Source of the DNA: Sporosarcina ureilytica
Lineage (GTDB): Bacteria; Bacillota; Bacilli; Bacillales_A; Planococcaceae
Assembly: GCF_001753205.1 (NCBI RefSeq)
Contig: NZ_CP017560.1
Location: 1,550,001 to 1,614,000, forward strand
Length of the DNA stretch: 64,000 nt
Reading direction: 5' to 3'
The translations under genes were made by a program, and so were the position numbers. Of the stretch, positions 9,654 to 31,645 are shown one piece after another. The notes below the pieces were generated by a model that searched no databases, had not been told where the DNA came from, and saw nothing but the letters and a program-made list of their open reading frames with translations. Positions within the stretch are counted from its first letter, which is position 1. Each line of letters opens with the position of its first letter.

Positions 9654-10050
9654 TCCCTAGAATTGGTTAACCTTCCACATTAATCTTATTGCAATAAGGA
9701 GGCAGTTATAACAGGCTAAGGAATGAATTTTGGATTGGACTTAGGTCGTAATGACGAGTACCCGTGCCGAATCTTTATCAAAGAGGATTCAGTTACAATA
9801 GTATTTTCAAGTAAATTTATAGATGAAAACTATAAGTTTATTAATAATAAGTATTTGAAAGTTTGTAAATATTCAAATAGAATAATCATATGGAGGGTGG
9901 GGAACTCAAGAGTTATATTTAATTTCAGACACTGAAAAATAAAAGGCTTTTGAAAGCGCTTTAAACGAGTGGTTAGTGGAGATATGAAGCTGTTTTAAAT
10001 CATGTGATTTTTGACTTACAAAAAATTTGAAAGAACGAGGGGGAAAAACT
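9654..10050. other. Intergenic region before the TRAP operon
   Basis: About 400 bases between the divergent RND and TRAP genes. It holds an orphan AAGGAGG at 9697-9703 with no start codon at proper spacing, and an open frame of 70 codons at 9723-9935 whose only Shine-Dalgarno-like AAGGA touches the ATG and whose sequence I do not recognise. Near the end lies a cre-like site. Promoters for both flanking genes should be here, but none is clear enough to place. Confidence 0.5.
9951..9964 (+). promoter_or_regulatory. cre-like site (CcpA) upstream of TRAP genes
   Basis: TGAAAGCGCTTTAA matches the CcpA consensus TGWNANCGNTNWCA at all fixed positions but one (A instead of C near the end). It lies about 90 bases before the TRAP binding-protein start. 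It suggests carbon catabolite control of the uptake system. One mismatch makes it less certain than the site at 24249. Confidence 0.45.
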
Positions 10051-11088: not shown

Positions 11089-11111
11089 TAAATAAAAAAA
11101 GGTAACAAAGT

Positions 11112-11151
11112 ATTTCCCGATTGTTATTTTCATAAATAACAATCGGGAAAT
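11112..11151 (+). terminator. Intra-operon hairpin between TRAP P and Q genes
   Basis: An 18-bp perfect stem (11112-11129 against 11134-11151; arm begins ATTTCCCGATTG) with a 4-base loop. Only a weak T-rich tail follows. It lies between the binding-protein gene and the membrane-subunit genes, where partial termination or 3'-end protection would give more binding protein than permease. Confidence 0.75.
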
Positions 11152-11304
11152 TATTTAAACGGACTGTGCGAAAATTTAGTGAAACTAATAAATGGCATTA
11201 TTTATTTGAAATGTACACCAGAAAACACTCTACAATTAGGACAGAATAATTACGCTCGTCAGAAGAAAGTAACGACTAAAGTGACGAAGTGGAGGATGTA
11301 TGCG

Positions 11305-11805
11305 GTGAAATTTTTAAATCTATTAAGAAAGATTGAAGAGATATTATTAGCGAGTACCATGATTATTATTCTTCTTTTAATTTTTAGTCAGGCATTATTT
11401 CGTTATTTCTTCGGAAGCGGACTCATTTGGGGAGAAGAGTTGGCAAGATATATTCATGTTGCACAAATTTGGCTTGGTGGAAGTTTAGCGATCAAAAAAG
11501 GTGGTCATATTCGCGTAACCTTTTTTAGAGATTTATTTAATACGCAAGGAAGAAAGTTTATTGATTTAATCGCAACCCTTTTATTTTTTACCTTTATGGT
11601 ATTTATTGCTGTAAAAGGTACGGAATTTATTCTGCATTTAATCGGAACAGGGCAAAAGGCACCGTCAATGGGTATTTTAATGGCTATTCCTTATACGGTC
11701 GTTCCACTTGGTGGTTTACTGATGGCGATTCGTCTGGTTCAGCAATTTAGAATGATATGGAAAGGTAAGTTACTAGATGCAGGGATAGAAGGTGTAGATA
11801 AATGA
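11305..11805 (+). CDS. TRAP transporter small membrane subunit (DctQ family)
   Basis: Four-helix subunit of the TRAP permease. The frame is open from 11179, but the start is best at GTG 11305, nine bases after GGAGG (11291-11295); this gives 166 residues, the usual DctQ size. The ATG at 11296 touches the ribosome binding site. TM1 follows at once (EILLASTMIIILLLIFSQ), then the DctQ landmark GLIWGEELARYIHVAQIWLGG and the GGHIRV motif. Its last codons overlap the DctM start (ATGA), indicating coupled translation. Confidence 0.9.
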   Translation: MKFLNLLRKIEEILLASTMIIILLLIFSQALFRYFFGSGLIWGEELARYIHVAQIWLGGSLAIKKGGHIRVTFFRDLFNTQGRKFIDLIATLLFFTFMVFIAVKGTEFILHLIGTGQKAPSMGILMAIPYTVVPLGGLLMAIRLVQQFRMIWKGKLLDAGIEGVDK

Positions 11806-13085
11806 CAATTGCAGTGTTGTTCATAAGTTTCTTTGCACTCATGTTAATTGGCGTTCCGATTGCGGTCTCTTTAGGGGCATCTACATTATTTACGATGGTA
11901 TTTGCAACTAATCTTCCATTAGGCTCTATTATTACACAGGCGTTTACTTCACTGGATTCATTTTCTCTCTTGGCGATTCCGCTATTTATTTTAGCAGGGG
12001 TTTTAATGAGTCTTGGTGGGGTTTCAAAGCGATTATTACATTTAGCTGATGTGTTGGTAGGTTACTTAGTTGGAGGTTTGGCGCATGGAACGATTCTAGC
12101 TAGTATGTTTTTTGCGGCTATTTCAGGTTCCGGACCCGCAACGGTTGCGGCCATTGGATCGTTCATGATTCCAGCAATGGCAAATAAAGGGTATGATAAA
12201 GGTTTTGCGGCTGCTGTTACAGCAACGGCTGGATCTATCGGTGTTATTATCCCGCCAAGTATTCCTTTTATCATGTTTGGAATCGTTGGTGGCGTATCGA
12301 TTGGCGGACTCTTTTTAGCAGGGATCATTCCAGGTATCTTGGTTGGAGCTGTATTAATGATTGTCTCCTATGGCATTGCAAAAAAGCGAGATTTCCCGAC
12401 AGAAGGAAAATTTCCAACTTTTATGGAAGTGGTAAAAGCATTTAACTATGCGAAATTTGCATTGTTGATTCCTGTCATTATTCTTGGTGGAATATATAGT
12501 GGGTTCTTTTCCCCTACTGAATCCGCTGCAGTAGCATGTATTTATGCGCTTATCATTGGTGTTTTTGTTTATAAAGAAATGAATTTAAGTAAAATTTATG
12601 ATGCATTTTTAGAGGCTACACTCATCACGATTCCAGTGAATATTATTATTAGTTTTTCGATTTCCTTTGCCTATTTACTTAGTATTGAACGAATTCCAAG
12701 AACGATTGCCGAGTTCATTACAGGCATATCTGAAAATATGATCATTACGATGCTCATTATTAGTGCTTTCTTATTTGTAGTTGGAATGTTTATCGATACA
12801 ATTTCTGCGGTGGTCATATTGACACCTATTTTACTGCCTGTTGCAACTGCTGTTGGTATGGAACCAATTCATTTCGGTGTCATTATGATTTGTAACTTGG
12901 CGATTGGATATGTTACTCCGCCACTTGGGGTAAATCTGTTTGTTGCTTCGCATATTAGTAAAGTGTCAATTGAACGGATAAGCCGCGCATTAGTTCCATT
13001 TATTATCGCAATGGTTGTTGTCGTGATTATACTTATTTTAATTCCGCAGTTGTCTCTGTTTATACCTAATATTGCTCTAAATTGA
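11802..13085 (+). CDS. TRAP transporter large membrane subunit (DctM family)
   Basis: Ion-coupled permease subunit of 427 residues with about 12 TM helices. The N-terminus shows the DctM pattern of a hydrophobic helix, GVPIAVSLGAS, then a segment LLAIPLFILAGVLMSLGGVS. SGSGPATVAAIGSFMIPAM and GVIIPPSIPFIMFGIVG are the conserved discontinuous-helix motifs, repeated in the second half as FVVGMFIDTISAVVILTPILLP and NLAIGYVTPPLGVNLFVAS. The start overlaps the DctQ stop by four bases. With the genes upstream it forms a complete TRAP system for Na+- or H+-driven uptake of an organic acid. Confidence 0.94.
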   Translation: MTIAVLFISFFALMLIGVPIAVSLGASTLFTMVFATNLPLGSIITQAFTSLDSFSLLAIPLFILAGVLMSLGGVSKRLLHLADVLVGYLVGGLAHGTILASMFFAAISGSGPATVAAIGSFMIPAMANKGYDKGFAAAVTATAGSIGVIIPPSIPFIMFGIVGGVSIGGLFLAGIIPGILVGAVLMIVSYGIAKKRDFPTEGKFPTFMEVVKAFNYAKFALLIPVIILGGIYSGFFSPTESAAVACIYALIIGVFVYKEMNLSKIYDAFLEATLITIPVNIIISFSISFAYLLSIERIPRTIAEFITGISENMIITMLIISAFLFVVGMFIDTISAVVILTPILLPVATAVGMEPIHFGVIMICNLAIGYVTPPLGVNLFVASHISKVSIERISRALVPFIIAMVVVVIILILIPQLSLFIPNIALN

Positions 13086-13148: not shown

Positions 13149-14249
13149 ATGAGATGGAGAAAATATGTCAAACAAATCGCTCCATATGTACCAGGCAAGT
13201 CAATTGAAGCAGTGAAGAAAGAATTCAATCTAGATGCGGTACTGCGACTTGCCTCTAATGAAAACCCACTCGGCCCATCATCAAAAGCAGTCGACGCCAT
13301 GCAGCAGGCAATGGCGGAATCGCATTTATATCCAGACCCTACGGCGGCTGAATTGAGAGAAAAGCTAGCAACGATTTATGGGGTTCTTCCAGAACAGATT
13401 ATTACTGGAAATGGTGCAGATAATGTTATTTCATTTGTAATTAGTGCGTTTGTAAATGAAGGAGATGAAGTGCTTTATTGTACGCCAACATTCCCAGCCT
13501 ATCGCTCTACAACGCTTTTAATGGGGGGGAAACCTGTTGAAGTACCTTTAACAAAGGAATTGACCTTTGATCTTGATAGCTTAAAAGAAAATATTACAGA
13601 TAAGACAAAACTTATTTTTATTTGTAATCCAAACAATCCAACAGGTACGATTGTTGAATCAAATGCATTGGAACAATTTATTGCCAGTGTTCCTGAACAT
13701 GTCACTGTCATTCTGGATGAGGCGTATATCGAATATGTTCGTAAAGAAAATTATTTAACTGGCATTGATTTTTTCAAGAAGGGCTATCCAGTGATTACGA
13801 TTAGAACATTTTCAAAGTTTTATAGCTTGGCAGGTCTCCGAGTTGGTTATGCAGTTGCATCAGAGGAAATGTTAGCGCCTATGTTACGTCTTCGAGAACC
13901 GTTTGCAGTGAATCGACCAGCGATTGCTGCGGCTGTTGCAACATTGGATGATACGGAATTTACTGAAGATCATTTTGAAATGAATGAAGCGGAAAAACTA
14001 GCCTTATCTGAAAAGATGGAGGAGCTCGGCTTTACCGTCTATCCGTCATCAACGAATTTCTTATTCATCCATATTAAAAGTGACGCACAAGAGTTATTTA
14101 ATGCGTTGTTGAAAAAGGGGATTATTATTCGACCATGTACCGGTTGGGGATATGATGAATATGTCCGAATTTCAATAGGTACGAAAGAACAAAATGAATT
14201 GTTACTGTCCACATTGAAACAATTAGAATCAGTTAAAACTGTTAGATAA
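13149..14249 (+). CDS. HisC-like PLP aminotransferase
   Basis: Fold-type I aminotransferase of 366 residues, close to histidinol-phosphate aminotransferase (HisC/Cobc group). Landmarks are SNENPLGPS at the N-terminus, the glycine-rich TGNGADNVI, NPNNPTGT, DEAYIEY, and the PLP lysine K223 in RTFSKFYSLAGLRVGYA. The C-terminal RISIGTKEQN holds the substrate carboxylate Arg. A HisC for biosynthesis would be expected among his or aro genes. Here it follows a TRAP system, 64 bases after dctM, and precedes a 2-hydroxyacid dehydrogenase and hut genes. I therefore infer a catabolic role, moving the amino group between histidine and imidazolepyruvate or handling another aromatic amino acid. Confidence 0.88.
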   Translation: MRWRKYVKQIAPYVPGKSIEAVKKEFNLDAVLRLASNENPLGPSSKAVDAMQQAMAESHLYPDPTAAELREKLATIYGVLPEQIITGNGADNVISFVISAFVNEGDEVLYCTPTFPAYRSTTLLMGGKPVEVPLTKELTFDLDSLKENITDKTKLIFICNPNNPTGTIVESNALEQFIASVPEHVTVILDEAYIEYVRKENYLTGIDFFKKGYPVITIRTFSKFYSLAGLRVGYAVASEEMLAPMLRLREPFAVNRPAIAAAVATLDDTEFTEDHFEMNEAEKLALSEKMEELGFTVYPSSTNFLFIHIKSDAQELFNALLKKGIIIRPCTGWGYDEYVRISIGTKEQNELLLSTLKQLESVKTVR

Positions 14250-14273: not shown

Positions 14274-15254
14274 ATGGGAAAGAAAAGGGTTTGGATTTTG
14301 GATGATGAGTGGTTTACACATGAATTGGAAAAAGAAATATATACAGAGCATGATATTGAGTTTAAAGTGACAAGAAGTGAATCTTTTAAAAACGACTTTG
14401 AATCATTCGGAAAAGATGCGGACGGAATTGTTGCACAAGTTGGATTTAATTTTGGTGCAGCATACATCTCCCGATTAACAAAATGCAAAATTATCGCCTC
14501 TTCCGGTGTTGGATTTAACCATATTGATTTAAATGCATCCGCGCAAAAAGGGATTTATGTAACGAATATGGCAGATTACTGTATTGGCGAAGTATCAGAT
14601 CATACAATTGCCTTAGCGTTAATTGTTTCTCGTAGACTTCGTGCTTATAATGAACAAGTGAAAAATGGGCAGTGGGATCCGTTAGATACATTACCAATTC
14701 ATCGTCTACAAGGCAGAACAGTAGGACTTTTAGGGTTTGGTCGGATTGCTAAAGAAGTAGCGAAAAAGTTTAAAGTATTTGGTGTGAATGTGATCGCTCA
14801 TGATAAATATGTTCCAGAAGAAGTGTTTACAAAACTCGGGGTCGAATCTGTCACATTGGAAGAATTGCTAGAGAGGTCAAATATTTTAAGTTTACATGTG
14901 CCATTAACGAAAGAAACAGAAGGACTTATTAATTATGAGCGCCTAAAGCAATTACAAAAAGGCTCAATCATCATTAACACGTGCCGAGGCGCAATAATAA
15001 ATGAGGATGATTTAACTCTTGTCATTAAAGAAGGACATATTGCCGGAGCGGGACTGGATGTTTTAGTAGAGGAACCGCCAAATAAGGATTTGGAGCTACT
15101 TCATTTAGATGAAGTGTATGTAACACCACATTCATCTTATGTATCAATTGAATCGGAATATGAACTCCGCTCACGGACAGCTTTAAATGTGATTCGTGCA
15201 ATGGACGGGGAGGTTCCGGAGTTTGTGCAAAATGATGTAAAAGTAAAGGTGTAA
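14274..15254 (+). CDS. D-2-hydroxyacid dehydrogenase
   Basis: NAD-dependent 2-hydroxyacid dehydrogenase (326 residues) that interconverts a 2-oxo acid and its D-2-hydroxy acid. The Rossmann motif reads GLLGFGRIA. The catalytic trio is Arg in INTCRGAIIN, Glu in GLDVLVEEPP, and His in VTPHSSYV. It starts 25 bases after the aminotransferase with a GGGAGG site, so the two are one operon. Together they could turn imidazolelactate into imidazolepyruvate and then histidine, or the reverse. The substrate is inferred from context only; D-lactate-like or phenyllactate-like substrates are also possible. A strong bidirectional terminator follows. Confidence 0.9.
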   Translation: MGKKRVWILDDEWFTHELEKEIYTEHDIEFKVTRSESFKNDFESFGKDADGIVAQVGFNFGAAYISRLTKCKIIASSGVGFNHIDLNASAQKGIYVTNMADYCIGEVSDHTIALALIVSRRLRAYNEQVKNGQWDPLDTLPIHRLQGRTVGLLGFGRIAKEVAKKFKVFGVNVIAHDKYVPEEVFTKLGVESVTLEELLERSNILSLHVPLTKETEGLINYERLKQLQKGSIIINTCRGAIINEDDLTLVIKEGHIAGAGLDVLVEEPPNKDLELLHLDEVYVTPHSSYVSIESEYELRSRTALNVIRAMDGEVPEFVQNDVKVKV

Positions 15255-16990: not shown

Positions 16991-17953
16991 ATGTATTATA
17001 ATTGGACAGGACGAGTTGATAAAAATGGAAAAGGTAAGCGCATTCATCAAATCGTTCGAAATATAGATATAAATGAATTAAAGAGAAAAGAACAACGAAC
17101 TATTAGTTTTGTTGGTTTTGAATGTGATGAAGGTGTTAAAAGAAACCAAGGTAGATTAGGTGCTTCTAAGGCACCAAATGAAATTCGGAAACTACTTGCA
17201 AGCATTCCTTATCACAACGAAAATAAAAGTCTTATAGATGTAGGTAATGTACGTTGCATTAACAATGATTTGGAAGAAGCACAAGCACAATTAGGACATC
17301 ATGTAGCCAAATTATTGGAAAATAACTACACGCCAATTATTTTAGGTGGGGGTCATGAAACATTTTATGGTCATTACTTAGGGGCAAGAAAGGCACTAGG
17401 TAAAGATAAGAAAATCGGCATGATAAATTTAGATGCACATTTTGACTTACGACTGGATGAGCAGTCATCATCTGGAACGATGTTTCGTCAAATTTTGGAA
17501 GATGATGAAAAAGCGGAATATTTATGCATCGGAATACAGGAATTAGGGAATACAGAACAACTGTTTTTAACGGCAGATGAATTAAATGTACAATATATAT
17601 TGGAACAGGATATTCAGCCGCTTGAAAATACTTTTGCTAAAATAAGTGAATTCTCACAAGAACAAGATTATATTATTTATACGATTTGTACAGATGTAAT
17701 CAATCAAGCGTATGCCCCGGGTGTAAGTGCTCCGGCTCCATTTGGAATTGAGCCGCAACTTGTAAGAGCGATTACAAAACATATTGTACAGCAAAATAAT
17801 TTTTTAAGTATGGATATTTCTGAAGTTAATCCTACGCTCGATATAGCAGATAAAACGAGTAGACTCATTAGTTATGTGATTGGAGAAACTTTAACACATT
17901 TAAATGAAAAAGAAAAAACCTTTTATGATATAGGAGTGGAGAACACGGTATGA
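16991..17953 (+). CDS. hutG: Formimidoylglutamase
   Basis: Ureohydrolase-family enzyme (320 residues) that splits N-formimino-L-glutamate into glutamate and formamide, the last step of the Hut pathway. Metal-binding motifs are visible as [10 protein letters not shown] (H122), NLDAHFDLR (D148, H150, D152), and a later segment [12 protein letters not shown] in place of the usual S-x-D-x-D-x-x-D-P. In that last motif only the central Asp of the expected acids is kept. The GVSAPAPFG segment is typical of HutG. The gene leads the hutG-hutH-hutI run, overlapping the first possible hutH start. Assignment is supported by both sequence and neighbours. Confidence 0.9.
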
Positions 17954-18012
17954 TTCAGCTTGGTGTGAAAGCAAACTCACTTGCAGAACCGATTAGAAAT
18001 GGGGGGGAAGAT

Positions 18013-19503
18013 ATGATCGAACTTACTGGGGATACGCTAACGATAAACCAATTAAAAGAAATATTATATGGAAATCAGAGAGTAAAAGTATCCGAAGAGA
18101 GCATGGAAAAAGTAAAGGCAAGTAGGGCGGCAGTAGATAAAATAGTAAAGAGTGCAGAAACGGTTTACGGAATTAACACGGGGTTTGGACAATTTAGTGA
18201 TGTTAAAATTGAGGAAGAAAATGTTGCAGACCTACAATTGAATTTAATACGTTCCCATGCTTGCGGTGTAGGTGAACCCTTTCCCCGTATTGTTTCGAAG
18301 GCGATGATGGTTTTACGCTTAAATGCTATTGTGAAAGGTTATTCAGGAGTCCGTATTGAAGTAGTCGAGTTATTGAAACAACTTATTAATTGTAATGTTA
18401 TTCCTGTTATTCCACAGCAAGGATCATTAGGGGCTTCAGGGGATTTAGCGCCACTTGCACATTTAGCGCTAGTGTTAATCGGGGAAGGGCAAGTTTTTAC
18501 AGAATCCGGTGAAGTTACTGATTCGTTAGAAGTATTGCAAAAACATAATCTACAACCGATTACACTACAAGCTAAAGAGGGATTAGCACTTATCAATGGT
18601 ACCCAGTCAATGACGGCAATGGGAGTTGTCAACTATATTGCATCTGAACAACTGGCCTTAGACAGTGAATGGATTAGTGCAATGACAATTGAATCACTAG
18701 AAGGGATTACTGACGCATTTTTACCAGAAACTCATGAAGTTCGTGGATATCCACAACAGACAGCAGTTGCTAAAAGGATGCTTAATTGGTTAGAGGGCAG
18801 TAATTTAACAACACGTCAAGGGGAGAAACGAGTACAAGATGCGTATTCGTTAAGGTGTATCCCTCAAGTACATGGGGCAACTTGGCAAGTATTGGATTAC
18901 GTGAAAGAAAAATTAGAAATTGAAATAAATGCTGCGACAGATAACCCGCTTATTTTTGATAATGGCAATACGGTAATATCTGGCGGTAATTTTCATGGAC
19001 AACCCATTGCATTTGCGATGGACTTTTTAAAAATAGGTGTCGCGGAGCTTGCGAATATTTCAGAGCGACGGACTGAAAGACTCGTAAATTCGCAGCTTAA
19101 TGAGGGTTTACCAGCATTTTTAAGTCCAGAGCCAGGTCTACAATCAGGTGCAATGATTATGCAATATGTTGCGGCTTCATTAGTATCTGAAAATAAAACG
19201 TTGGCCCATCCAGCAAGTGTCGATTCTATCCCATCATCTGCAAATCAAGAGGACCATGTTAGTATGGGGACGATCGGGTCAAGGCATGCAGCTGATATTA
19301 TCAAAAATAGTCAGAGAGTTTTAGCTATTGAGGCTATTTGTGCGATGCAAGCACTTGAATATAGAGGCGTGGAAAAAGCGGCCGAAAAAACTAGGGAAAA
19401 ATGGAAGACGATAAATCATATCGTTCCAAGCATTACAGAAGATCGAGCTTTCCATAAAGATATTGAAAACTTATACAATTATTTAAAAGAGATTAAGATT
19501 TAA
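18013..19503 (+). CDS. hutH: Histidine ammonia-lyase
   Basis: Converts L-histidine to trans-urocanate and ammonia, the first Hut step. The MIO cofactor triad Ala-Ser-Gly is at residues 141-143 in [17 protein letters not shown], and the catalytic Tyr at 52 in [24 protein letters not shown] and the C-terminal [12 protein letters not shown] are all present. The frame is open from an ATG at 17950 that overlaps the hutG stop, but ATG 18013 directly follows a GGGGGGGA ribosome binding site and gives 496 residues, in line with the usual ~500-510. Part of a hutGHI run. Confidence 0.95.
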
Positions 19504-19524
19504 CTATTTCAAGGAGGAATGAAC

Positions 19525-20817
19525 ATGTCAAATGTATTATATATAAAAAATGCATCAGAACTTATTACAGTTAGGGGGCATTCTGAGAAACCAGCTAAAA
19601 AAACAGCGATGAGTGAAATTGGAATTATTGAAAACGGTTGTGTCTTGTCGAAAGACGGTAAAATTGTAGCAGTTGGAACAGATGAAGAAATTCGTAACGA
19701 GCATCAGGACCTAGTAAATCTAGCAGAGGTAATCGATGCAACGGGTAAAGTTGTGACGCCTGGACTTGTAGATCCTCATACACATATCGTTTATGCAGGA
19801 ACGCGTGAAAATGAATACGCAATGCGTTTAGAAGGTAAAACATATATGGAAATCATGAATGCAGGTGGCGGAATTCATGCAACGACACGTGCAACACAAC
19901 AGGCGAGTTTTGATGAACTTTATGAACAATCAAAAGCACGGTTAGATAAAATGTTGCTGGGTGGAATTACTACGATTGAAGCAAAAAGCGGTTACGGTCT
20001 AACACTGGAAGATGAATTAAAACAGTTAGAAGTTGCTAAGAAATTAAATGAAGATCATCAAATCGATTTGATCTCAACATTTATGGGTGCACATGCAGTC
20101 CCGTTGGAGTATAAAGATAATCCGGAAGCATTTATTGATATCGTTATTAACGAGATGTTACCGGTAGTTGCGGAAAAAAACCTAGCTGTATTTAATGATG
20201 TGTTTTGCGAAAGAGGTGTATTTACGCCAGAACAGTCAAAACGAATTTTAGAAGCTGGTAAGAAATACGGCTTAAAGCCAAAGATCCATGCTGATGAAAT
20301 TGAATCATACAGCGGAGCAGAAATGGCAGCAGAAGTTAAGGCTGTTTCAGCAGAGCATTTATTAAGAGCTTCTGATGAAGGGATTAAAGCAATGGCGGAA
20401 AATGACGTGATTGGCGTATTACTGCCAGGAACAGCTTTCTTCTTAATGGCTGATTATGCGGAAGCTCGTAAAATGATTGACGCAGGAATGGCGATCGCTC
20501 TATCTACTGATGCGAATCCAGGGTCCTCTCCAACCCTTTCATTACAGTTTATTATGAACTTAGGTTGTTTAGAAATGGGAATGACACCGGAAGAGGTCAT
20601 TACAGCAACAACAATTAACGCAGCCCATGCAATTGATGCGGCAGATCGTATCGGAAGTATCGAGGTTGGTAAAGATGCGGATTTCACATTGTTTGATGTT
20701 AAAAACCATTTAATGCTTTCGTATCAATATGGCATGAATCATACACATACGGTTGTTAAAAAAGGAAACGTAGTTGTATCGGATGGACATATCATAAAGT
20801 CAGCGGCTGTTTACTAA
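19525..20817 (+). CDS. hutI: Imidazolonepropionase
   Basis: Metal-dependent amidohydrolase (430 residues) that opens 4-imidazolone-5-propionate to N-formimino-L-glutamate. The metal-binding HxH is H85-T-H87 in PGLVDPHTHIVYAGTRENEY, and further motifs are GAHAVP, KIHADE, and STDANPGSSPT with the catalytic Asp. The ATG at 19525 lies seven bases after AAGGAGG (19511-19517); the in-frame ATG at 19519 is too close. It follows hutH by about 20 bases and is followed by a 130-base gap with no clear terminator before the first urocanase gene. Confidence 0.95.
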   Translation: MSNVLYIKNASELITVRGHSEKPAKKTAMSEIGIIENGCVLSKDGKIVAVGTDEEIRNEHQDLVNLAEVIDATGKVVTPGLVDPHTHIVYAGTRENEYAMRLEGKTYMEIMNAGGGIHATTRATQQASFDELYEQSKARLDKMLLGGITTIEAKSGYGLTLEDELKQLEVAKKLNEDHQIDLISTFMGAHAVPLEYKDNPEAFIDIVINEMLPVVAEKNLAVFNDVFCERGVFTPEQSKRILEAGKKYGLKPKIHADEIESYSGAEMAAEVKAVSAEHLLRASDEGIKAMAENDVIGVLLPGTAFFLMADYAEARKMIDAGMAIALSTDANPGSSPTLSLQFIMNLGCLEMGMTPEEVITATTINAAHAIDAADRIGSIEVGKDADFTLFDVKNHLMLSYQYGMNHTHTVVKKGNVVVSDGHIIKSAAVY

Positions 20818-20950: not shown

Positions 20951-22591
20951 ATGTCAAATGTGTTAATTTCACCAACAGGGCCGGAAATTAGCTGTCAGAA
21001 TTGGGAAATAGAAGGATTATTACGGCTTTTTCTTAATAGTATAGATCCTCGTGTCGCGGAAAGTAGTAAAGATTTAATTGTTTACGGCGGCCGGGGAAAA
21101 GCTGCGCGAAATTACGAAGCGGTGCAGGCAATCATTGATGAGTTGCAAAATCTAGCCACGGATGAAACTTTACTAATCCAGTCTGGGAAGCCGGTTGGGA
21201 AATTTAAAACATACGAAAGTTCGCCGAGAATTGTGAATGCTTCATCTGTCCTTGTACCACATTGGTCGACAGATAACTATTTCAGTGAATTAATTGATAA
21301 AGGATTAATGATGTATGGTCAATCTACGGCGGCTTCTTGGGCATATATAGGCGTTCAAGGCGTTTTGCAAGGAACGTTTGAGACGATGGGTGAAATTGCC
21401 AGGAAGCATTTCAATCATACATTACAAGGGAAAATCGTATTAACTTCAGGGTTAGGCGGCATGAGTGCTGCCCAACCCTTATCTGTTACGATGCATGGTG
21501 GCGTTTGTATTGTTGTTGAAATTTCGGAAGAGAAAATCGATCAGCGGTTAAAAAATAATTATTGCGATATTAAAGTGAATACGCTTGAAGAGGCTATTGT
21601 ATTAGCGAAAGAAGCAGCAAATGCCAAAAAGCCGTTAGCAATTGCCTTAATTGGAAACGTCTCTGAAGTATATAGAGAAGCGCTTAAAGCGAATTTTATT
21701 CCAGATATTGTAACAGACCAGACTTCCGCTCATGATTTACACATGGGATATATTCCTAATGGTTTGTCATTGGTGCAAGCGGAGACGTTACGTAAGAAAA
21801 ATACAGCCCATTATTATGAACTCATTAAAGAATCACTAATTTTGCATGTAGAAGCAATGGTCAATTTTAAGGAACGCGGTGCAATCGTATTTGAATATGG
21901 AAATAATTTAAGAAACCAAGCGTATCAGGCTGGTTATGAGCAAGCGTTTCAATTACCTGGTTTTGCTAGTGACTATTTACGGCCATTATATTGTGAAGGT
22001 AGGGGGCCGTGTCGTTGGATTGCATTATCAGGAAACCCGGAAGATATTTATAAAATTGATGAAATTGTTTTGGAAACTTTTAACCATGATAAACGTGTTG
22101 CTAGATGGATTCAATTTGTTCAAGAAAAAATATTTTTTAATGGATTACCCGCTAGAACTTGTTGGTTAGATTATGAAGAGCGAGAGCAAATCGGTGCTTT
22201 GATTAATGAAATGGTGAAATCCGGAGAACTTTCTGCGCCAATTGCTATAACAAGAGATCATTCTGAAGGAAGTACAATGGCAGCCCCGTTCAGGGAAACT
22301 GAAAATATGCTTGATGGTAGTGATGTTGTTGCAGATTGGCCGATTTTAAATGCGATGTTAAATGCAAGCGCCGGAGCATCGATGGTCAGTATCCAAAATG
22401 GTGGGGGAGTCGGGATTGGTAACTCAGTACATTCTGGGATGACCGTCATTGCTGATGGAAGTGATGAAGCATCAGAACGACTAAGAAAGATATTAGTGGT
22501 TGACCCGGGAATGAGTATTATTCGACATGCTGATGCGGGGTATGAACAGGCGAAAAAGGCCTTAGATAAAATAAAACTAGGTAAGAGGTGA
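20951..22591 (+). CDS. Divergent urocanase-family hydratase (HutU paralogue 1)
   Basis: Urocanate hydratase family, 546 residues, full length. Like the second copy it keeps the NAD-binding glycines (GLGGMSAAQPL) and the Cys of the active-site region (C404 in GLPARTCWL), plus the NNLR and DHSEG-type segments. It differs at positions almost fixed in urocanases: the ICWLGYGER motif is [27 protein letters not shown] is TRDHSEGSTMAAPFRETE, and [13 protein letters not shown] becomes SIQNGGGVGIGNS with Gln482-Asn483 in place of His-His. It may act on a modified urocanate, such as a thio- or methyl-urocanate, or be losing function. The reading frame is intact and the ribosome binding site good, which argues for selection. 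Confidence 0.85.
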   Translation: MSNVLISPTGPEISCQNWEIEGLLRLFLNSIDPRVAESSKDLIVYGGRGKAARNYEAVQAIIDELQNLATDETLLIQSGKPVGKFKTYESSPRIVNASSVLVPHWSTDNYFSELIDKGLMMYGQSTAASWAYIGVQGVLQGTFETMGEIARKHFNHTLQGKIVLTSGLGGMSAAQPLSVTMHGGVCIVVEISEEKIDQRLKNNYCDIKVNTLEEAIVLAKEAANAKKPLAIALIGNVSEVYREALKANFIPDIVTDQTSAHDLHMGYIPNGLSLVQAETLRKKNTAHYYELIKESLILHVEAMVNFKERGAIVFEYGNNLRNQAYQAGYEQAFQLPGFASDYLRPLYCEGRGPCRWIALSGNPEDIYKIDEIVLETFNHDKRVARWIQFVQEKIFFNGLPARTCWLDYEEREQIGALINEMVKSGELSAPIAITRDHSEGSTMAAPFRETENMLDGSDVVADWPILNAMLNASAGASMVSIQNGGGVGIGNSVHSGMTVIADGSDEASERLRKILVVDPGMSIIRHADAGYEQAKKALDKIKLGKR

Positions 22592-22597
22592 GACACC

Positions 22598-24178
22598 ATG
22601 ATTTCATTAGGAATTTACAATCACCGAATCCTTTATGATGAACTGTCAGATTACGAAAATTTTCAAATTGAGATTCTTGAGACACTTACTGATGTAATGG
22701 ACTTCTCAAAATACGACTTGGTCATTCTGAATATTTCCGATATCAAAGAGGAACAGTATTCTTACTTCCTGAACCAATTAAAACAGCTAGATATGTCAAA
22801 AGTTATCTTTATAAACAAAGCCTTTTCTATAGAACAAGTGAAAAAGTTAATGTTTTTAGGAGCGTACGATTGTCTTACACTCCCTGTACATATCCCTGAT
22901 TTACTGAGAATCCTGACAGATGCCTTTGCAGACATAAAAAGAGCAAAACGCAGAAGGCAGAAAAAAGAAACATATAAAATTAATTCAATTAGAGCAAGTT
23001 TAGCCTATGATCTTTTACATGGAAATATAAAAAATGCGAAAGAAATATGGGAACGCAGCCAGTTGGCAAATCTATCACTGATCCCAAATACTGTTCTATT
23101 ATTACGAATTGACCACTTTACCAAATTAGTGGAGAACAAAGGGGAACTATGGAAAAAATCATTACGAGAAGAAGTGCTTCATGCGATGCAAGGTTGTGAG
23201 CTGAACTATGAATCATTAACAGTTCTCGTGAATCAACAGAAATTTGCCATACTATTATCTTTACCAGTCCAATTAGAGGAAAAGAAGTATAAGCAGCTTG
23301 CAATTGAATATGCAGAAAAAATCCGTACACAAATTAATAATGAAACAGACTACACGGTTACAATTGGAATTGGAAATTATTACGAAGATGCACGTAACCT
23401 TCATCTTTCTTATCAAGAAAGTGAACAAGCGCAAAGCCATCGACTATTTCAAGAAGAAAACGCTATCATCCATAAAGAAGAGCTGGATTATTTCGATACG
23501 CCAAAATATCACGAATACAAAATTCAAATTCAAGAAATGACTAATAAATTTCTACTTGGCGATATTACCGCTGTACATACAATTTGGGAAGAAATTTATC
23601 AATCTGTCGCTACCAAACGTAATTTTCAGCCTGAAGACTTTCGTCTGCAAGTGTTAGATTTATTATTCTCACTGACAAAAACAGCAATCCAAAATGGTGC
23701 AAATCCAAAACAGATGATGCCATTACAAATAAAACATGCCAAAGAACTTCATGACATCGAATCAATAGCCGAGATTGATGCGTGGATGACAGATATTATT
23801 AATGAGTATATCCACTATGTGAATGAAGGTCATAATGAAGAAGTGCTGAAATCTGTACAACAAGGATTGCAATTTATTGAAGATTATTTTCATGAAGATA
23901 TCGGCCTGGATTTGATTGCTGATAAGGTCGATTTAAGTCCAAATTATTTGAGTGCGATCTTTAAGCAAACGACAGGAACTTCGTTTATTGAGTATTTAAC
24001 AAACTTAAGGGTGGAAAAAGCAAAAGAGAAACTACAAGATTTAAATTTGGCTGTCTCTGAAATTGCTGAATCAGTTGGATACAGCTCTTCCCAGTATTTT
24101 AGTAGAGTTTTTAAGAGAAATACCGGGATGACACCAAGTGCCTACCGAAATAGTATCTTAACTACTAGTAAAATATAA
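22598..24178 (+). CDS. AraC-family regulator with degenerate receiver domain
   Basis: YesN-like regulator of 526 residues. The N-terminus (~1-115) has a receiver-like fold pattern, but the phosphorylation site reads YDLVILNIS with Asn45 where Asp is expected, and the acidic pair near residue 8 is missing (LGIYNHR). A long middle domain follows, and the last ~100 residues are a double AraC helix-turn-helix (IGLDLIADKVDLSPNYLSAIFK, IAESVGYSSSQYFSRVFKRNTGMTPS, each seen in part). It starts seven bases after the paralogue-1 urocanase gene. No histidine kinase is nearby, so it probably senses a ligand or partner without phosphorylation and controls the hut genes. Confidence 0.88.
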   Translation: MISLGIYNHRILYDELSDYENFQIEILETLTDVMDFSKYDLVILNISDIKEEQYSYFLNQLKQLDMSKVIFINKAFSIEQVKKLMFLGAYDCLTLPVHIPDLLRILTDAFADIKRAKRRRQKKETYKINSIRASLAYDLLHGNIKNAKEIWERSQLANLSLIPNTVLLLRIDHFTKLVENKGELWKKSLREEVLHAMQGCELNYESLTVLVNQQKFAILLSLPVQLEEKKYKQLAIEYAEKIRTQINNETDYTVTIGIGNYYEDARNLHLSYQESEQAQSHRLFQEENAIIHKEELDYFDTPKYHEYKIQIQEMTNKFLLGDITAVHTIWEEIYQSVATKRNFQPEDFRLQVLDLLFSLTKTAIQNGANPKQMMPLQIKHAKELHDIESIAEIDAWMTDIINEYIHYVNEGHNEEVLKSVQQGLQFIEDYFHEDIGLDLIADKVDLSPNYLSAIFKQTTGTSFIEYLTNLRVEKAKEKLQDLNLAVSEIAESVGYSSSQYFSRVFKRNTGMTPSAYRNSILTTSKI

Positions 24179-24262: not shown

Positions 24263-24278
24263 TAAGGGGGAAACGGTG

Positions 24279-25613
24279 ATGAAAGCTGAAAATATTACAG
24301 AAACAACGATGGCACATAGTTATATAAAATTTTCAAATATATTTAAATTAGTTTTTTATAGTGCTGTTGGCGCTTTTATGTTTTTTATTCCGATAACAAT
24401 CGACGGTAAATCGTCTATCATGCTCGATCATATCGTAACATTTTTACGAGGTGGAATACCTCCGTTTGTCATACATTTCTACATTGCAATTATTTTAGTT
24501 GTGGGAGCAACTTACCCATTTGTTACTCGGACTTGGAACAAAACGATCACATCTACGATTATGTCTTTCCTAAAAGTTGTTGGACTGATACTTGGACTCA
24601 TGCTTATTTTAGGTGTAGGTCCAGCCTGGATGTTTCAAGAAGATATGGGTCCGTTTATACTGAATGCTTTAGTTACTCCTGTTAGTATACTCGTTCCTGT
24701 AGGCGCTCTTTTTTTAGCCTTACTTGTCGGGTATGGATTACTCGAATTTATCGGAATATTAATGCAACCGGTCATGCGCCCGATTTTCAGAACACCTGGA
24801 AGGTCAGCAATCGATGCGGTCGCCTCGTTTGTCGGAAGTTATTCGATTGGTCTTTTGGTTACGAACCGTATTTATAATGAGGGGAAATATACGAAAAGAG
24901 AAGCGATAATTGTTGCGACTGGATTTTCAACTGTATCGGCGACGTTTATGGTTGTCATTGCGAACACGCTTGATATCATGTCGATTTGGAACTTTTATTT
25001 CTGGACATCTTTAGTCATCACATTTACGGTGACGGCTATTACAACCCGTTTATGGCCAATCAGTAGTACACCGGATACGTATGTTAATGGAGAAGGAGAT
25101 CCGGAATTAGTCATCGAAAAGGATCGTTTAAAAACAGCGTGGAATGAAGCACTTAAAGTCGCGGATGATAGTGAACCATTATACCGCTATATTCTTGTCA
25201 GTTTAAAAGAAGGTATTCAAATGGTCATGAGTATTTTGCCGACAATTCTTTCGGTAGGTCTTCTTGGCTTAGTATTGGCAACCTATACGCCGATCTTTGA
25301 TTTATTAGGCTATATTTTCTATCCGATTACGTACCTATTAAAAATACCCGAGCCTTTACTAGTCGCTAAAGCAAGTGCGATTTCCATTACAGAAATCTTC
25401 TTGCCATCTTTATTAGTTGTCGGAGCTCCGTTAATGACGAAATATATTGTAGCTGTCTTATCTGTATCGTCAATTTTATTTTTCTCAGCTTCCATTCCAA
25501 GTATGTTGGCGACAGATATACCTTTCAGTGTACCGAAATTAGTCGTTATTTGGTTTATAAGAGTTGTTTTAACATTGATGATTACTACTCCAGTTGCGTA
25601 CCTTTTCTTATAG
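24279..25613 (+). CDS. YjiH-family membrane protein (nucleoside-recognition/Gate domains)
   Basis: Integral membrane protein of 444 residues with about 10-11 TM helices and Gate-type segments (GRSAIDAVASFVGSYSIGLLVTNR and FLPSLLVVGAPLMTKYIVAVLSVSSILF, in part). The ATG at 24279 lies eight bases after AAGGGGG; a GTG at 24276 is closer. YjiH proteins have no settled function, but the Gate domain occurs in nucleoside transporters. Flanked by urocanase, CoA-transferase and acyl-CoA dehydrogenase genes and lying under a cre site, it is a good candidate for import of histidine, urocanate or a related imidazole acid (inference). Confidence 0.82.
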   Translation: MKAENITETTMAHSYIKFSNIFKLVFYSAVGAFMFFIPITIDGKSSIMLDHIVTFLRGGIPPFVIHFYIAIILVVGATYPFVTRTWNKTITSTIMSFLKVVGLILGLMLILGVGPAWMFQEDMGPFILNALVTPVSILVPVGALFLALLVGYGLLEFIGILMQPVMRPIFRTPGRSAIDAVASFVGSYSIGLLVTNRIYNEGKYTKREAIIVATGFSTVSATFMVVIANTLDIMSIWNFYFWTSLVITFTVTAITTRLWPISSTPDTYVNGEGDPELVIEKDRLKTAWNEALKVADDSEPLYRYILVSLKEGIQMVMSILPTILSVGLLGLVLATYTPIFDLLGYIFYPITYLLKIPEPLLVAKASAISITEIFLPSLLVVGAPLMTKYIVAVLSVSSILFFSASIPSMLATDIPFSVPKLVVIWFIRVVLTLMITTPVAYLFL

Positions 25614-25750: not shown

Positions 25751-26896
25751 ATGAAGCAACCTTTAGAAGGAATAAAAGTTTTGGACTTTTCAAGAGTTTT
25801 AGCTGGTCCCTACTGTACGATGTTGTTAGCAGATATGGGAGCAGAAGTTATTAAAATTGAAAGGCCGGAAACAGGAGATGATACTCGACATTTTGGTCCG
25901 TTCCAAAATGGTGAAAGCGGTTATTTCATGTTTTTGAACCGCGGTAAAAAAAGTGTTGAGTTGAACTTGAAAGAAGCTTCCGATCGTGAAAGTTTAATGG
26001 CGTTAATTAAAGAAGCAGATGTTATTGTAGAAAATTTCCGCCCTGGTGTTATGAAAGGGTTAGGATTAGATTATGAAACTTTGAAAGAAGTTAATGAAGG
26101 TTTAGTCTATTGTTCGATTTCAGGTTTTGGTCAGTATGGACCTTATAGTAAGCGACCTGCCTATGATATCGTTGCACAAGCTATGGGGGGAATTGCTAGT
26201 ATCACTGGCTATCCAGACAATCCGCCTACTAGATCTGGTGCATCACTTGGAGATATGAGTGCAGCGCTTTATGCAGCATATGGCGTGATGGTTGCTCTTT
26301 TCCATAGGGAACGAACAGGCATTGGTCAAGAAATCGATGTTGCGATGGTCGACTCAATTTTCGCATTGCTTGAACATAATGTCATGCGTTACACATCAGA
26401 AGGCGTTACTCCTGAGCGAGTTGGAAATCGCCATCCGATTAGTGCGCCGTTTGATGTATATGAAAGTAAAGAGGGACATGTAGTCATAGCAACGGCGAAC
26501 GAGTCTTTATTCGCTAGACTTTGTAAGGTGATGGATAAAGAAGAGTTGTTAGAGGACGCACGTTTTGTGACAGATATTGAGCGTGGGAAAAATGAAAGCG
26601 AATTAAAAGTAATTATTGAAGAGTGGCTGTCACAATATACTGCTGAAGAAGCAGTAAATCTTATTAATGAGGCTGGAGTACCTAGCTCAACAATTTTAAA
26701 TATTGCTGAAATCAGTGAAAGTGATCATGTAAAAGAAAGAGAAATGTTGCTTGAGATTGAGCATCCAATTGCAGGTAAGACACGTATTCCAGGTAACCCT
26801 GTTAAATTATCAAAAACACCTATACAAGTTAAGTCACCAAGCCCAGCTTTAGGTGAACATAACGACATGATTAAACAGAAATTTAAAGCAAAGTGA
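25751..26896 (+). CDS. CaiB/BaiF-family (class III) CoA-transferase
   Basis: Moves CoA from an acyl-CoA to a free carboxylic acid. The 381-residue protein starts with the typical PLEGIKVLDFSRVLAGPY and has VENFRPGVMKGLGLDY, SISGFGQYGPY, and the catalytic Asp168 in SLGDMSAALYAAYG. The ribosome binding site is GGGGAGGGG. Eleven bases separate it from the acyl-CoA dehydrogenase gene, so the two form an operon. CaiB with CaiA in carnitine metabolism, and FldA with AcdA in phenylpropionate formation, show the same pairing. In this hut context the natural acid pair would be imidazolepropionate and urocanate (inference). Confidence 0.9.
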   Translation: MKQPLEGIKVLDFSRVLAGPYCTMLLADMGAEVIKIERPETGDDTRHFGPFQNGESGYFMFLNRGKKSVELNLKEASDRESLMALIKEADVIVENFRPGVMKGLGLDYETLKEVNEGLVYCSISGFGQYGPYSKRPAYDIVAQAMGGIASITGYPDNPPTRSGASLGDMSAALYAAYGVMVALFHRERTGIGQEIDVAMVDSIFALLEHNVMRYTSEGVTPERVGNRHPISAPFDVYESKEGHVVIATANESLFARLCKVMDKEELLEDARFVTDIERGKNESELKVIIEEWLSQYTAEEAVNLINEAGVPSSTILNIAEISESDHVKEREMLLEIEHPIAGKTRIPGNPVKLSKTPIQVKSPSPALGEHNDMIKQKFKAK

Positions 26897-26906
26897 GTGA
26901 TCAACT

Positions 26907-28046
26907 ATGAATTTTGATTTTACAGAGGAACAAAAAAGTATTCGAGATATGGTCAGAAATTTCACAAGAGATGTCATTGCTCCTAAAGCAGAAGAAATTG
27001 ACCGTGACAATCGTTTTCCTAAAGAACATATTTCAAAGATGGGGGAACTTGGTCTGTTAGGAATTGCGTATCCAGAGGAAGACGGTGGCGTTGGCGCTGA
27101 TGCTATTTCTGAGGCAATTGCTGTTGAAGAAATTACATATGGCTGTGCTGCAACGGGTTCAATCTTGACTGCCCATTATTTAGGGATAGATGGACTTTAT
27201 CTTGCGTCAAATAAAGAACAGCGAGAAAAGTATTTAGTTCCAGGTTGCCAAGGTGAAAAGTTATTTGCCTTTTGTTTGACAGAACCGATTGGAGGCACGG
27301 ACGTTTCTTCCATGAAAACAACTGCAAAACGTGATGGAGATACATATGTGCTGAATGGTTCGAAAATCTTTATCACAAATGGTTCTTATGCAGATACACT
27401 AGTTGTTTATGCAAAAACAGATACAGCAAAAGGCAGTAAAGGAATCAGTGCATTCATCGTTGAAAAAGATACGCCTGGTTTATCATTTGGAGCTGGCGAT
27501 GACAAAATGGGAATTCGCGGTGCAACAACAGACGAAGTCATTTTTGAAAACTGTGTCATTCCGGCAGAAAACCTTGTTGGAGAAGAAGGAGAAGGCTTCA
27601 AAATTGCGATGCAAGTAGTTGACCGCGGAAGAATCGGAATTGCTGCAATGGCCATTGGTTTATCCCAAGCTGCAATCGATGAAGCGGTAAACTATTCGAA
27701 GGAACGAGAAGCATTCGGTCAGACAATTAACAAGTTCCAAGGACTTCAATGGATGATGGCAGAGATGGAGACGGATCTTGCTGTCGGCCGATTGTACACA
27801 TATTTTACAGCTAGTTTAAAAGATAAAGAAGGATATAGATTGTCAAAAGAAGCATCAATTGCAAAATTATTTACCTCTGAAGCATCTAATAGAATTGTAA
27901 ATAAAGCCGTTCAAATCCATGGCGGTTATGGCTATATGAAAGAGTATACAGTTGAAAGACTGTACAGAGATCAGCGAATTCTAGAAATCTTTGAAGGAAC
28001 ATCACAAGTGCAGAAAATGGTTATTGCTCATCATTTATTGAAATAA
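26907..28046 (+). CDS. Acyl-CoA dehydrogenase
   Basis: FAD-dependent acyl-CoA dehydrogenase of 379 residues. FAD- and substrate-binding motifs are LTEPIGGTDVSSMKTTA, KIFITNG, and QIHGGYGY. The catalytic Glu is E363 in IFEGTSQVQ, the position used by short- and medium-chain members. It follows the CoA-transferase gene by eleven bases with a weak ribosome binding site, so translation may be coupled. It would place a 2,3-double bond in an acyl-CoA. If the substrate is imidazolepropionyl-CoA the product is urocanyl-CoA, which the neighbouring CoA-transferase could release as urocanate. A general fatty or branched acyl-CoA substrate is the alternative. Confidence 0.92.
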   Translation: MNFDFTEEQKSIRDMVRNFTRDVIAPKAEEIDRDNRFPKEHISKMGELGLLGIAYPEEDGGVGADAISEAIAVEEITYGCAATGSILTAHYLGIDGLYLASNKEQREKYLVPGCQGEKLFAFCLTEPIGGTDVSSMKTTAKRDGDTYVLNGSKIFITNGSYADTLVVYAKTDTAKGSKGISAFIVEKDTPGLSFGAGDDKMGIRGATTDEVIFENCVIPAENLVGEEGEGFKIAMQVVDRGRIGIAAMAIGLSQAAIDEAVNYSKEREAFGQTINKFQGLQWMMAEMETDLAVGRLYTYFTASLKDKEGYRLSKEASIAKLFTSEASNRIVNKAVQIHGGYGYMKEYTVERLYRDQRILEIFEGTSQVQKMVIAHHLLK

Positions 28047-28152: not shown

Positions 28153-29814
28153 ATGAGTCTAAAAGTTCAAGAAATCCGTGCCCCTCGTGGGAATAAGTTA
28201 AATTGTAAAGGTTGGGTCCAGGAAGCCGCATTGCGTATGCTTATGAATAACCTCGATCCAGAAGTAGCTGAAAATCCAGATGATCTTGTTGTATACGGTG
28301 GAATCGGTAAAGCAGCTAGAGACTGGGAAAGTTACCATAAAATCATTGAAGAATTAAAAGAATTAGAGAATGATGAAACATTATTAATCCAATCAGGTAA
28401 GCCTGTTGGGAAATTCAGAACACATGAGAACTCACCACGTGTATTAATCGCTAACTCGAATTTAGTTCCTGCATATGCGAACTGGGAGCATTTTAATGAG
28501 TTAGATAAAGAAGGACTCATGATGTATGGACAAATGACAGCAGGAAGCTGGATTTACATCGGAGCACAAGGAATTCTCCAAGGTACTTACTTAAGTTTTG
28601 TTGAAGCAGGAAAGAAACTTTACGGAACACCTGACTTAACAGGTAAATTTATTTTAACTGGTGGTATGGGTGGAATGAGTGGAGCTCAGCCACTAGCAGG
28701 TAAAATGGCAAAAGCAGTTATTTTAGTGGTTGAAGTTGATCGTAAGAGAATCGAAAGAAAAATCAAAGAAAAATACTGTGACTATATTTTTGAAGATCTT
28801 GACGAAGCATTAGATAAAGTCAAAGAATTGACTGCAAAAGGCGAGCCAGCTTCAATCGGTTTAGTTGGAAACTGTGCAGATGTTTTCCAAGAAATTCATG
28901 ACCGGGGTATTGTACCAGATATCGTTACAGACCAAACGAGTGCACATGACCCAAGAAACGGTTATGTTCCAAGCGGCATGACGTATGAAGAAGCTCTAAA
29001 ACTAAGAGAAGAAGATCCAGATAAATATGAGGAACTTTCACTTGAAACAATTGCGAATCATGTAAGAGCAATGTTAGCTCTACAAGAAGCTGGATCAGAA
29101 ACGTTTGACTATGGAAATAACATTAGACATTATGCAAAAGTACAAGGTGTAGAAAATGCGTTTGACTTCCCAGGATTCGTTCCGGCATATCTACGTCCAC
29201 TGTTCTGTGAAGGAAACGGTCCTTTCCGTTGGGCTGCATTATCAGGAGAGCCTGAAGATATTTATAAAACAGACCAATTAGCAAAAGAAATGTTTGCTGA
29301 TAATGAAGCGTTAGTAAACTGGATTGACATGGCTCAGAAAATGGTTGCATGGCAAGGTTTACCAGCAAGAATTTGTTGGTTAGGTTACGGTGAGCGTCAT
29401 AAGTTTGCCCTAAAAGTAAATGAAATGGTTGCAAGTGGTGAACTAAGTGCACCTATTGTATTCGGACGTGATCATTTGGACAGTGGCTCAGTTGCTTCAC
29501 CAAACCGTGAGACGGAATCAATGAAAGATGGCAGTGATGCAGTAGCAGACTGGCCGATCTTAAATGCACTAGTAAACACTGCTGGTGGAGCGAGTTGGGT
29601 AAGTTTACACCACGGTGGTGGGGTTGGAATGGGATATTCAATTCATGCTGGTCAAGTATTAGTTGCTGATGGAACGGAAGAAGCAGCTGAAAAGATCAAA
29701 CGTGTCCTTGTGTCTGACCCGGGAATGGGCGTTATTAGACACGCCGATGCAGGCTATCAGAGAGCGATGGATGTTGCTGAAGAGCGCGGCGTTCATATTC
29801 CAATGAAGAAGTAA
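28153..29814 (+). CDS. hutU: Urocanate hydratase (canonical)
   Basis: NAD-dependent enzyme that turns urocanate into imidazolonepropionate. The 553-residue protein keeps the whole family signature: [17 protein letters not shown], the active-site Cys408 in [32 protein letters not shown], and the His486-His487 pair in [17 protein letters not shown]. The start ATG 28153 follows AAAGGAGA; an overlapping two-codon ATG-AAA-TGA precedes it. It ends the island with a strong terminator. It is the gene that should supply the main urocanase activity, in contrast to the divergent copy at 20951-22591. Confidence 0.96.
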
Positions 29815-29825
29815 TTAATTTAATA

Positions 29826-29868
29826 AGAGAACTGTTCACTAAGTTTATGTGAGCAGTTCTCTTTTTTT
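29826..29868 (+). terminator. Rho-independent terminator after hutU
   Basis: A stem of 14 bp pairs 29826-29839 (AGAGAACTGTTCAC) with 29849-29862, with one G-T pair, followed by seven T. It closes the imidazole island. A near-identical stem sequence without the T-run recurs at 31533-31569. Confidence 0.88.
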
Positions 29869-30841: not shown

Positions 30842-31147
30842 ATGAAGAAAGAAATTAAGTATGCGGCAGTTTTTTATTATGAAATGGATTCGATGAACGA
30901 GGGGAAGGGCCGAGTATATATACGCTATCCTGATCTTGAGAGAGCGGGTATCCCTGCAGTGGCGGTATCTGATTCACGGGAACGAGAAAGCGTGGCGAGA
31001 GACTTACTGCAATCAGCGATAGAATTTGCGATAGTTATCGATAAAGAATTACCCAATCCATCTCCAATCGAGAGCATAAATATAAAACGAGATATTGATG
31101 CGGTCGCACAGCCCTTTAAGATTGAAATCGTAAATATATTGCTGTAA
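30842..31147 (+). CDS. HicB-like antitoxin-family protein (orphan)
   Basis: Protein of 101 residues with the HicB-type partial RNase-H fold pattern: a beta-rich start (IKYAAVFYYEM), then GRVYIRYPDLERAG, then VARDLLQSAIEFAI and a Pro-Ser pair (LPNPSPIE) as in HicB. There is no C-terminal DNA-binding extension and no HicA-type toxin gene beside it. The ATG at 30842 follows GAAGGAG; the in-frame ATG at 30821 lies before that site and is not used. HicB proteins block the HicA mRNA interferase; an orphan may be a remnant, or act with a distant partner. Family assignment is from pattern only. Confidence 0.65.
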   Translation: MKKEIKYAAVFYYEMDSMNEGKGRVYIRYPDLERAGIPAVAVSDSRERESVARDLLQSAIEFAIVIDKELPNPSPIESINIKRDIDAVAQPFKIEIVNILL

Positions 31148-31154
31148 TTAAGAA

Positions 31155-31326: not shown

Positions 31327-31645
31327 CCCGTTTACTCAGTGAGAAATTTCAGTTTTGAAAGTCGTGTACCGATGCAAGAAACTATTCGAACAATACCAAT
31401 ACACTACAATTGCATAAGTCTAAAAAAATTCTGCAATTACCGGTGATTTATTTGATGTCATTTGAATTTCCATTCGTAATATTGAATTTTCGAAATTCAA
31501 CCTTGCACAGGCACCCGACACTAATTTTAAAAGAGAACTGTTCACTAAGTTTATGTGAGTAGGTTCTCTGAAATCAATTCACATTTCTACTTGTCGTTTT
31601 TAACTAACGGTAAGAAGAAACCTAATTCAAAATGCTACTGTTATT
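31327..31645. other. Intergenic region with a copy of the hutU terminator stem
   Basis: No gene is visible. At 31533-31560 the sequence AGAGAACTGTTCACTAAG and the bases after it repeat 29826-29853 almost exactly, but the second arm is altered and there is no T-run. An ACAGGCACCCGACAC word lies near 31505. Confidence 0.5.

Follow-up and report, generated by a model that had tools for sequence, protein, structure and literature searches.

A CoA-transferase and acyl-CoA dehydrogenase pair beside hutU as a candidate link between imidazolepropionate and histidine utilization

Two urocanase genes of a bacterial histidine utilization (hut) cluster enclose genes for a CoA-transferase and an acyl-CoA dehydrogenase, which raises the question of what CoA chemistry has to do with urocanate. 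The first-pass annotation had suggested that the pair converts imidazolepropionate to urocanate via CoA thioesters. Imidazolepropionate is a product of gut bacteria linked to type 2 diabetes and cardiovascular disease, and it was called non-metabolizable in a 2025 review (PMC11872695). A paper of 1965 describes it in its title as a nonmetabolizable inducer of the hut enzymes, and the title of a paper of 1973 reports its degradation by Pseudomonas testosteroni. This earlier work on bacterial degradation is physiological and concerns the same two compounds that are proposed here; no genes assigned to it were found. No genes for imidazolepropionate degradation are named in the literature found, in which subscription journals and preprints are thinly covered, so that this is weak evidence of novelty.

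The gene pair and its proposed reaction

The window, i.e., the whole stretch of 64,000 nucleotides that was analyzed, belongs to a 3.44 Mb genome. Among the named relatives found, Pseudogracilibacillus auburnensis is the closest. The first gene of the pair (25751-26896, +) encodes a CaiB-type class III CoA-transferase of 381 aa, proposed here as an imidazolepropionate CoA-transferase of the hut-linked clade described below. The protein matches PF02515 over its full length with 462.7 bits (gathering score 23.3). Its Asp168, located in SGASLGDMSAA, is invariant across 132 aligned homologues, which bears out the earlier assignment of this residue as catalytic. The second gene (26907-28046, +) encodes an acyl-CoA dehydrogenase of the short-chain type with 379 aa, the proposed imidazolepropionyl-CoA dehydrogenase. 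Its three domains (PF02771, PF02770 and PF00441) all score over the cut-off, and Glu363 is the catalytic glutamate of the EGT motif (EIFEGTS), as had been annotated at first.

Modelled with AlphaFold2 (pLDDT 89), the dehydrogenase has butyryl-CoA and short-chain dehydrogenases as its top solved matches, with TM-scores of 0.96-0.97. At residues 88-95, the protein carries the sequence TAHYLGID. The motif [T/G]AHxLxxD was found in 20 of 20 module dehydrogenases and in none of the 38 other dehydrogenases collected, the GAH form being that of Acetobacter. A TAHxLxxD-type motif is also present in five dehydrogenases encoded on alphaproteobacterial plasmids. Aligned by hand, Thr88 falls on the position of Glu99 in medium-chain acyl-CoA dehydrogenase, a residue located at the base of the acyl pocket.

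The two genes are separated by 10 bases (11 in the first-pass annotation), and hutU starts 106 bases past the end of the dehydrogenase gene. The tight spacing and the position directly before hutU were thus correctly described apart from that one number. The location between two urocanases, HutU1 (20951-22591, +) and HutU2 (28153-29814, +), also holds, but two further genes share this interval. One of them encodes an AraC-type regulator with a GGDEF-like domain (22598-24178, +; PF12833 and PF17853), which lies next to the pair in P. auburnensis (L034) and in three other relatives (L114-L116) as well. The other encodes a Gate-domain (YjiH-like) membrane protein and possible transporter (24276-25613, +; PF07670), which also adjoins the pair in L034 and L117. 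Further upstream lie hutG for formimidoylglutamase (16991-17953, +; TIGR01227), hutH for histidine ammonia-lyase (17950-19503, +; TIGR01225) and hutI for imidazolonepropionase (19519-20817, +; TIGR01224), each over the cut-off of its model. On the 3' side of HutU2, a terminator-like hairpin (gagaactgttcactaagtttatgtgagcagttctc) is found at 29827-29868, and a near-identical copy occurs about 1.7 kb downstream at 31533-31572. A short ORF in this region (30843-31148) resembles, by eye, a solitary HicB-type antitoxin.

In the proposed cycle, the CaiB-type enzyme would load CoA onto imidazolepropionate via an aspartyl intermediate at Asp168. The dehydrogenase (Glu363, FAD) would then take the 2,3-hydrogens from imidazolepropionyl-CoA to give urocanyl-CoA, and the electrons would pass to ETF and on to the quinone pool. 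Subsequently, another molecule of imidazolepropionate would receive the CoA of urocanyl-CoA through the transferase, which would release urocanate. As CoA would be recycled by the transferase, only catalytic amounts of acyl-CoA would be needed. Urocanase, HutI, and HutG would complete the breakdown of urocanate. The substrate, the CoA donor and the direction of the reaction in the window organism are those that we infer.

Linkage to the hut genes and the second urocanase

Loci of CaiB homologues were sampled from named genomes (80 loci), and others were added from relatives. HutU, HutI or HutH neighbours were present in six of the 80 named-genome loci, namely in P. auburnensis (L034), Citrobacter sp. 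wls619 (L047), three Providencia species (L050, L055, L056) and Acetobacter lovaniensis (L094). In a maximum-likelihood tree, every hut-linked CaiB falls into one clade of 24 rows (SH-aLRT 99), which spans Bacillaceae, Citrobacter, Providencia, Pseudomonas, and Acetobacter. In the Pseudomonas loci, HutC is a further neighbour, joined by hutU in three of them. The only other members of the clade are two proteins from Actinomycetota (L045, L053), whose loci gave no match to the hut genes of the window, and two plasmid proteins from Rhizobium/Agrobacterium, whose gene neighbours are an ammonia-lyase homologue and genes of beta-oxidation. Because of the latter neighbours, the CaiB clade is not tied to a single substrate. 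The lyase homologues on the two plasmids (L123, 10410-11960; L124, 10431-11978) are homologues of aromatic amino acid lyases but lack the Ala-Ser-Gly triad from which the MIO cofactor is formed (GSVGY---LIATSH). They share an operon with the clade CaiB, a hydroxyacyl-CoA dehydrogenase and an enoyl-CoA hydratase.

The module is rare, a close transferase being found in 3 of 198 Enterobacteriaceae genomes, in 6 of 249 from Pseudomonas and in 5 of 151 from the surroundings of the window genome. Among 5426 E. coli genomes searched at the DNA level, a fragment of 120 bases of the transferase gene was present in 121 and the pair in none. Several observations count against the proposed module. Some Pseudomonas loci, one from Enterobacteriaceae (L127) and the alphaproteobacterial copies have no local hutU. 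The dehydrogenases form separate Bacillaceae and proteobacterial clades (support 100 each), and the regulator in the window is of the AraC type and not HutC.

As for the regulation in gammaproteobacteria, HutC recognises TGTA-N2-TACA in Pseudomonas (PMC12977541). Exactly one such motif per 18-21 kb was found in all 11 gammaproteobacterial loci, which represent about three lineages and not 11 independent events; control loci contain 0.21 per 20 kb. The predicted HutC site precedes the first gene of the unit, which is caiB itself in L041 and L138. In Pseudomonas, the sequence TGGCCC...TTGCA beside the predicted site resembles a sigma-54 promoter by eye. The predicted operator is absent from the Acetobacter locus L094, from L197-L200 and from the Rhizobium loci. 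In Gemmobacter (L196), the single match to the motif lies at a Rieske gene and not at the pair.

The two urocanases of the window differ in their relation to the known enzyme. HutU2 is a canonical urocanase with solved-structure relatives and scores 947.8 bits against TIGR01228 (cut-off 375). HutU1 is divergent and scores 772.6 bits against the same model (cut-off 375). Both stay below the thiourocanate hydratase models NF058530 (cut-off 930) and NF058531 (cut-off 880), with 614.4 and 619.1 for HutU1 and 699.8 and 756.4 for HutU2. Compared with 15 canonical urocanases, HutU1 has 35 positions that are fixed differently. These include the changes of Asp443 to Glu and of His486 to Gln (HutU2 numbering), and the GRDHLD region is remodelled to TRDHSE. 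HutU1 strictly accompanies the CaiB-ACAD module of Bacillaceae. Urocanases of at least 62% identity to it occur in exactly the 5 of 151 genomes that have an orthologue of the transferase, genomes that represent two genera only, and all other urocanases found reach at most 55%.

Such strict co-occurrence with the pair, together with the remodelled active-site region, would suit a modified imidazolepropionate (e.g., N-methylated) or another arylpropionate as the substrate, and in Bacillaceae the urocanate so modified would be hydrated by HutU1. The Rhizobium members of the CaiB clade, which belong to a different pathway, point the same way. However, the gammaproteobacterial units carry the canonical urocanase only, and the Bacillaceae clusters also retain the canonical HutU2. 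A modified substrate therefore seems unlikely, and imidazolepropionate itself is preferred.

Direction of the reaction and known enzyme pairs

Evidence on the direction comes from the electron carriers encoded beside the pair. The Citrobacter operon reads HutC-HutD-HutU-CaiB-ACAD-NCS1-EtfB-EtfA-ETF:quinone oxidoreductase. The Providencia operon reads HutU-CaiB-ACAD-NCS1-EtfB-EtfA-ETF-QO and is accompanied by HutC. In both, the last protein has the ubiquinone-binding and 4Fe-4S domains of ETF-QO, and NCS1 is a transporter type. The Pseudomonas operon consists of HutC-HutU-CaiB-ACAD-NCS1, with EtfBA in one locus. The gammaproteobacterial pair thus usually comes with its own urocanase and transporter. 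In P. auburnensis (L034), EtfB-EtfA follow HutU2 and end the cluster. In the window, no ETF gene or remnant was seen by eye after HutU2, where only the terminator-like hairpin, a cold-shock gene and short ORFs are located. A dedicated ETF with an ETF:quinone oxidoreductase suggests that electrons leave the acyl-CoA, and therefore that the saturated acid is oxidised. Since no ETF gene adjoins the pair in the window, the oxidative direction is assigned to it by homology only.

A genome of the same family (G074), with an estimated completeness of 100%, supports this direction. A single cluster encodes HutU1, HutU2, HutI and HutG together with both enzymes of the pair, and no PF00221 protein was found in the genome. 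Hence, it appears to have no histidine ammonia-lyase, which would close the usual enzyme route from histidine to urocanate. Its urocanate would come from imidazolepropionate oxidation or from urocanate uptake.

The enzyme families and their pairing have precedents. Carnitine metabolism by CaiA/CaiB is reductive and anaerobic. It likewise uses a class III CoA-transferase and an acyl-CoA dehydrogenase to cycle CoA between substrate and product. Unlike the window pair, CaiA/CaiB are without a hut link, and the window pair misses their curated cut-offs (L-carnitine CoA-transferase NF002914, 149.4 of 413; crotonobetainyl-CoA NF002885, 192.6 of 540). AcdA/FldA of clostridial phenylpropionate formation belong to the same two families and act on a 3-arylpropionate/3-arylacrylate pair. 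In contrast to the proposed module, this system is reductive, requires the dehydratase FldBC and has phenylpropionate as its end product. An FldBC-type dehydratase was not found in the ORFs that surround the pair in the window.

Operated in reverse, the window pair would reduce urocanate to imidazolepropionate in a CoA-dependent manner and thereby dispose of electrons, as do CaiA/CaiB and AcdA/FldA. Known CoA-transferase/dehydrogenase pairs of such type are often reductive, and the solved structures that come nearest include ETF-linked clostridial enzymes. Nevertheless, the operons hold an ETF:quinone oxidoreductase, the urocanase of the operon would compete for urocanate, and the predicted HutC operator ties expression to catabolism. 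Moreover, G074 is without a histidine ammonia-lyase for making urocanate. This reverse operation is considered improbable.

Succinate-glutarate CoA-transferase with glutaryl-CoA dehydrogenase represents the same two families and also oxidises a free acid. This system differs in its linkage, and the window pair stays under the curated cut-offs (343.4 of 750 for the transferase and 297.7 of 470 for the dehydrogenase). The scores are also below the cut-offs for the oxalate/formyl-CoA transferases (NF008511, 384.8 of 522; TIGR03253, 291.9 of 504.2) and for acryloyl-CoA reductase (NF042972, 475.5 of 640). Both families are common, and the named models that come closest are those for oxalate and succinate-glutarate transferases and for butyryl-type dehydrogenases. 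It is nevertheless very improbable that the genes are an ordinary pair for short-chain or dicarboxylate (glutarate-type) acyl-CoA placed beside hutU by chance, as every such curated cut-off is missed and the hut linkage is conserved across phyla and limited to one clade.

The conversion of imidazolepropionate to urocanate via CoA thioesters, as first annotated, is supported by sequence evidence of several kinds, i.e., the linkage to hut genes and HutC in Bacillota, Gammaproteobacteria, and Alphaproteobacteria, the ETF and ETF-QO genes, the HutC sites, the gene content of G074 and the motif of the dehydrogenase. Most probably, an imidazolepropionate-catabolic module starts with this pair and supplies the ordinary pathway of histidine utilization.

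A possible imidazolelactate branch and the meaning of the module

The upstream region of the window contains further genes that may belong to the same metabolism. A TRAP transporter (dctP, dctQ, and dctM, ORFs named by sequence; 10027-13085, +) is proposed to take up imidazole acids. It is followed by a HisC-like aminotransferase (13149-14249, +), proposed to convert imidazolepyruvate to histidine, and a D-2-hydroxyacid dehydrogenase (14274-15254, +; PF02826 and PF00389), the proposed imidazolelactate dehydrogenase. A LysR regulator and a RidA-like protein are also encoded in this region. The biosynthetic HisC is probably a different protein, because the window genome has a second HisC, 39% identical to the HisC-like one, in a tyrA-aroA cluster.

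The three relatives L114-L116 have the TRAP transporter, the HisC-like protein and the hydroxyacid dehydrogenase together with HutU1, the AraC regulator, CaiB, ACAD, and HutU2. Their clusters are without hutG, hutH, and hutI, and hutH is located on another contig. On alphaproteobacterial plasmids, the pair adjoins a HisC-like aminotransferase and an unrelated, FAD-linked hydroxyacid dehydrogenase, to which Mesorhizobium adds hutC. That hydroxyacid dehydrogenases of two different families accompany the pair points to a common task, which could be the conversion of imidazolelactate via imidazolepyruvate to histidine. Judged by gene content, this suggests that the TRAP transporter, the hydroxyacid dehydrogenase and the HisC-like enzyme form a second branch, salvaging imidazolelactate by this route. 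Two of the alphaproteobacterial plasmids (L196, 2875-7530; L198, 10296-15152) also carry a Rieske (VanA-type) oxygenase/reductase beside the HisC-like aminotransferase, the FAD-linked hydroxyacid dehydrogenase and CaiB-ACAD.

On balance, we lean towards a dedicated, scattered module that would degrade both imidazolepropionate and imidazolelactate, the reduced products of histidine. In this module, CoA-thioester oxidation would be joined to hut, with control by HutC in gammaproteobacteria and an extra urocanase of new specificity in Bacillaceae. Urocanate reductase UrdA belongs to a different family from the CoA-transferase/dehydrogenase pair. It also interconverts urocanate and imidazolepropionate, but in the opposite direction and without CoA (PMC11872695). 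If the proposal is true, bacteria could feed on imidazolepropionate by returning it to urocanate. The pair would then constitute a two-enzyme imidazolepropionate sink that is directly assayable, and the module would serve as a genetic marker of bacteria that degrade imidazolepropionate, Citrobacter and Providencia among them.
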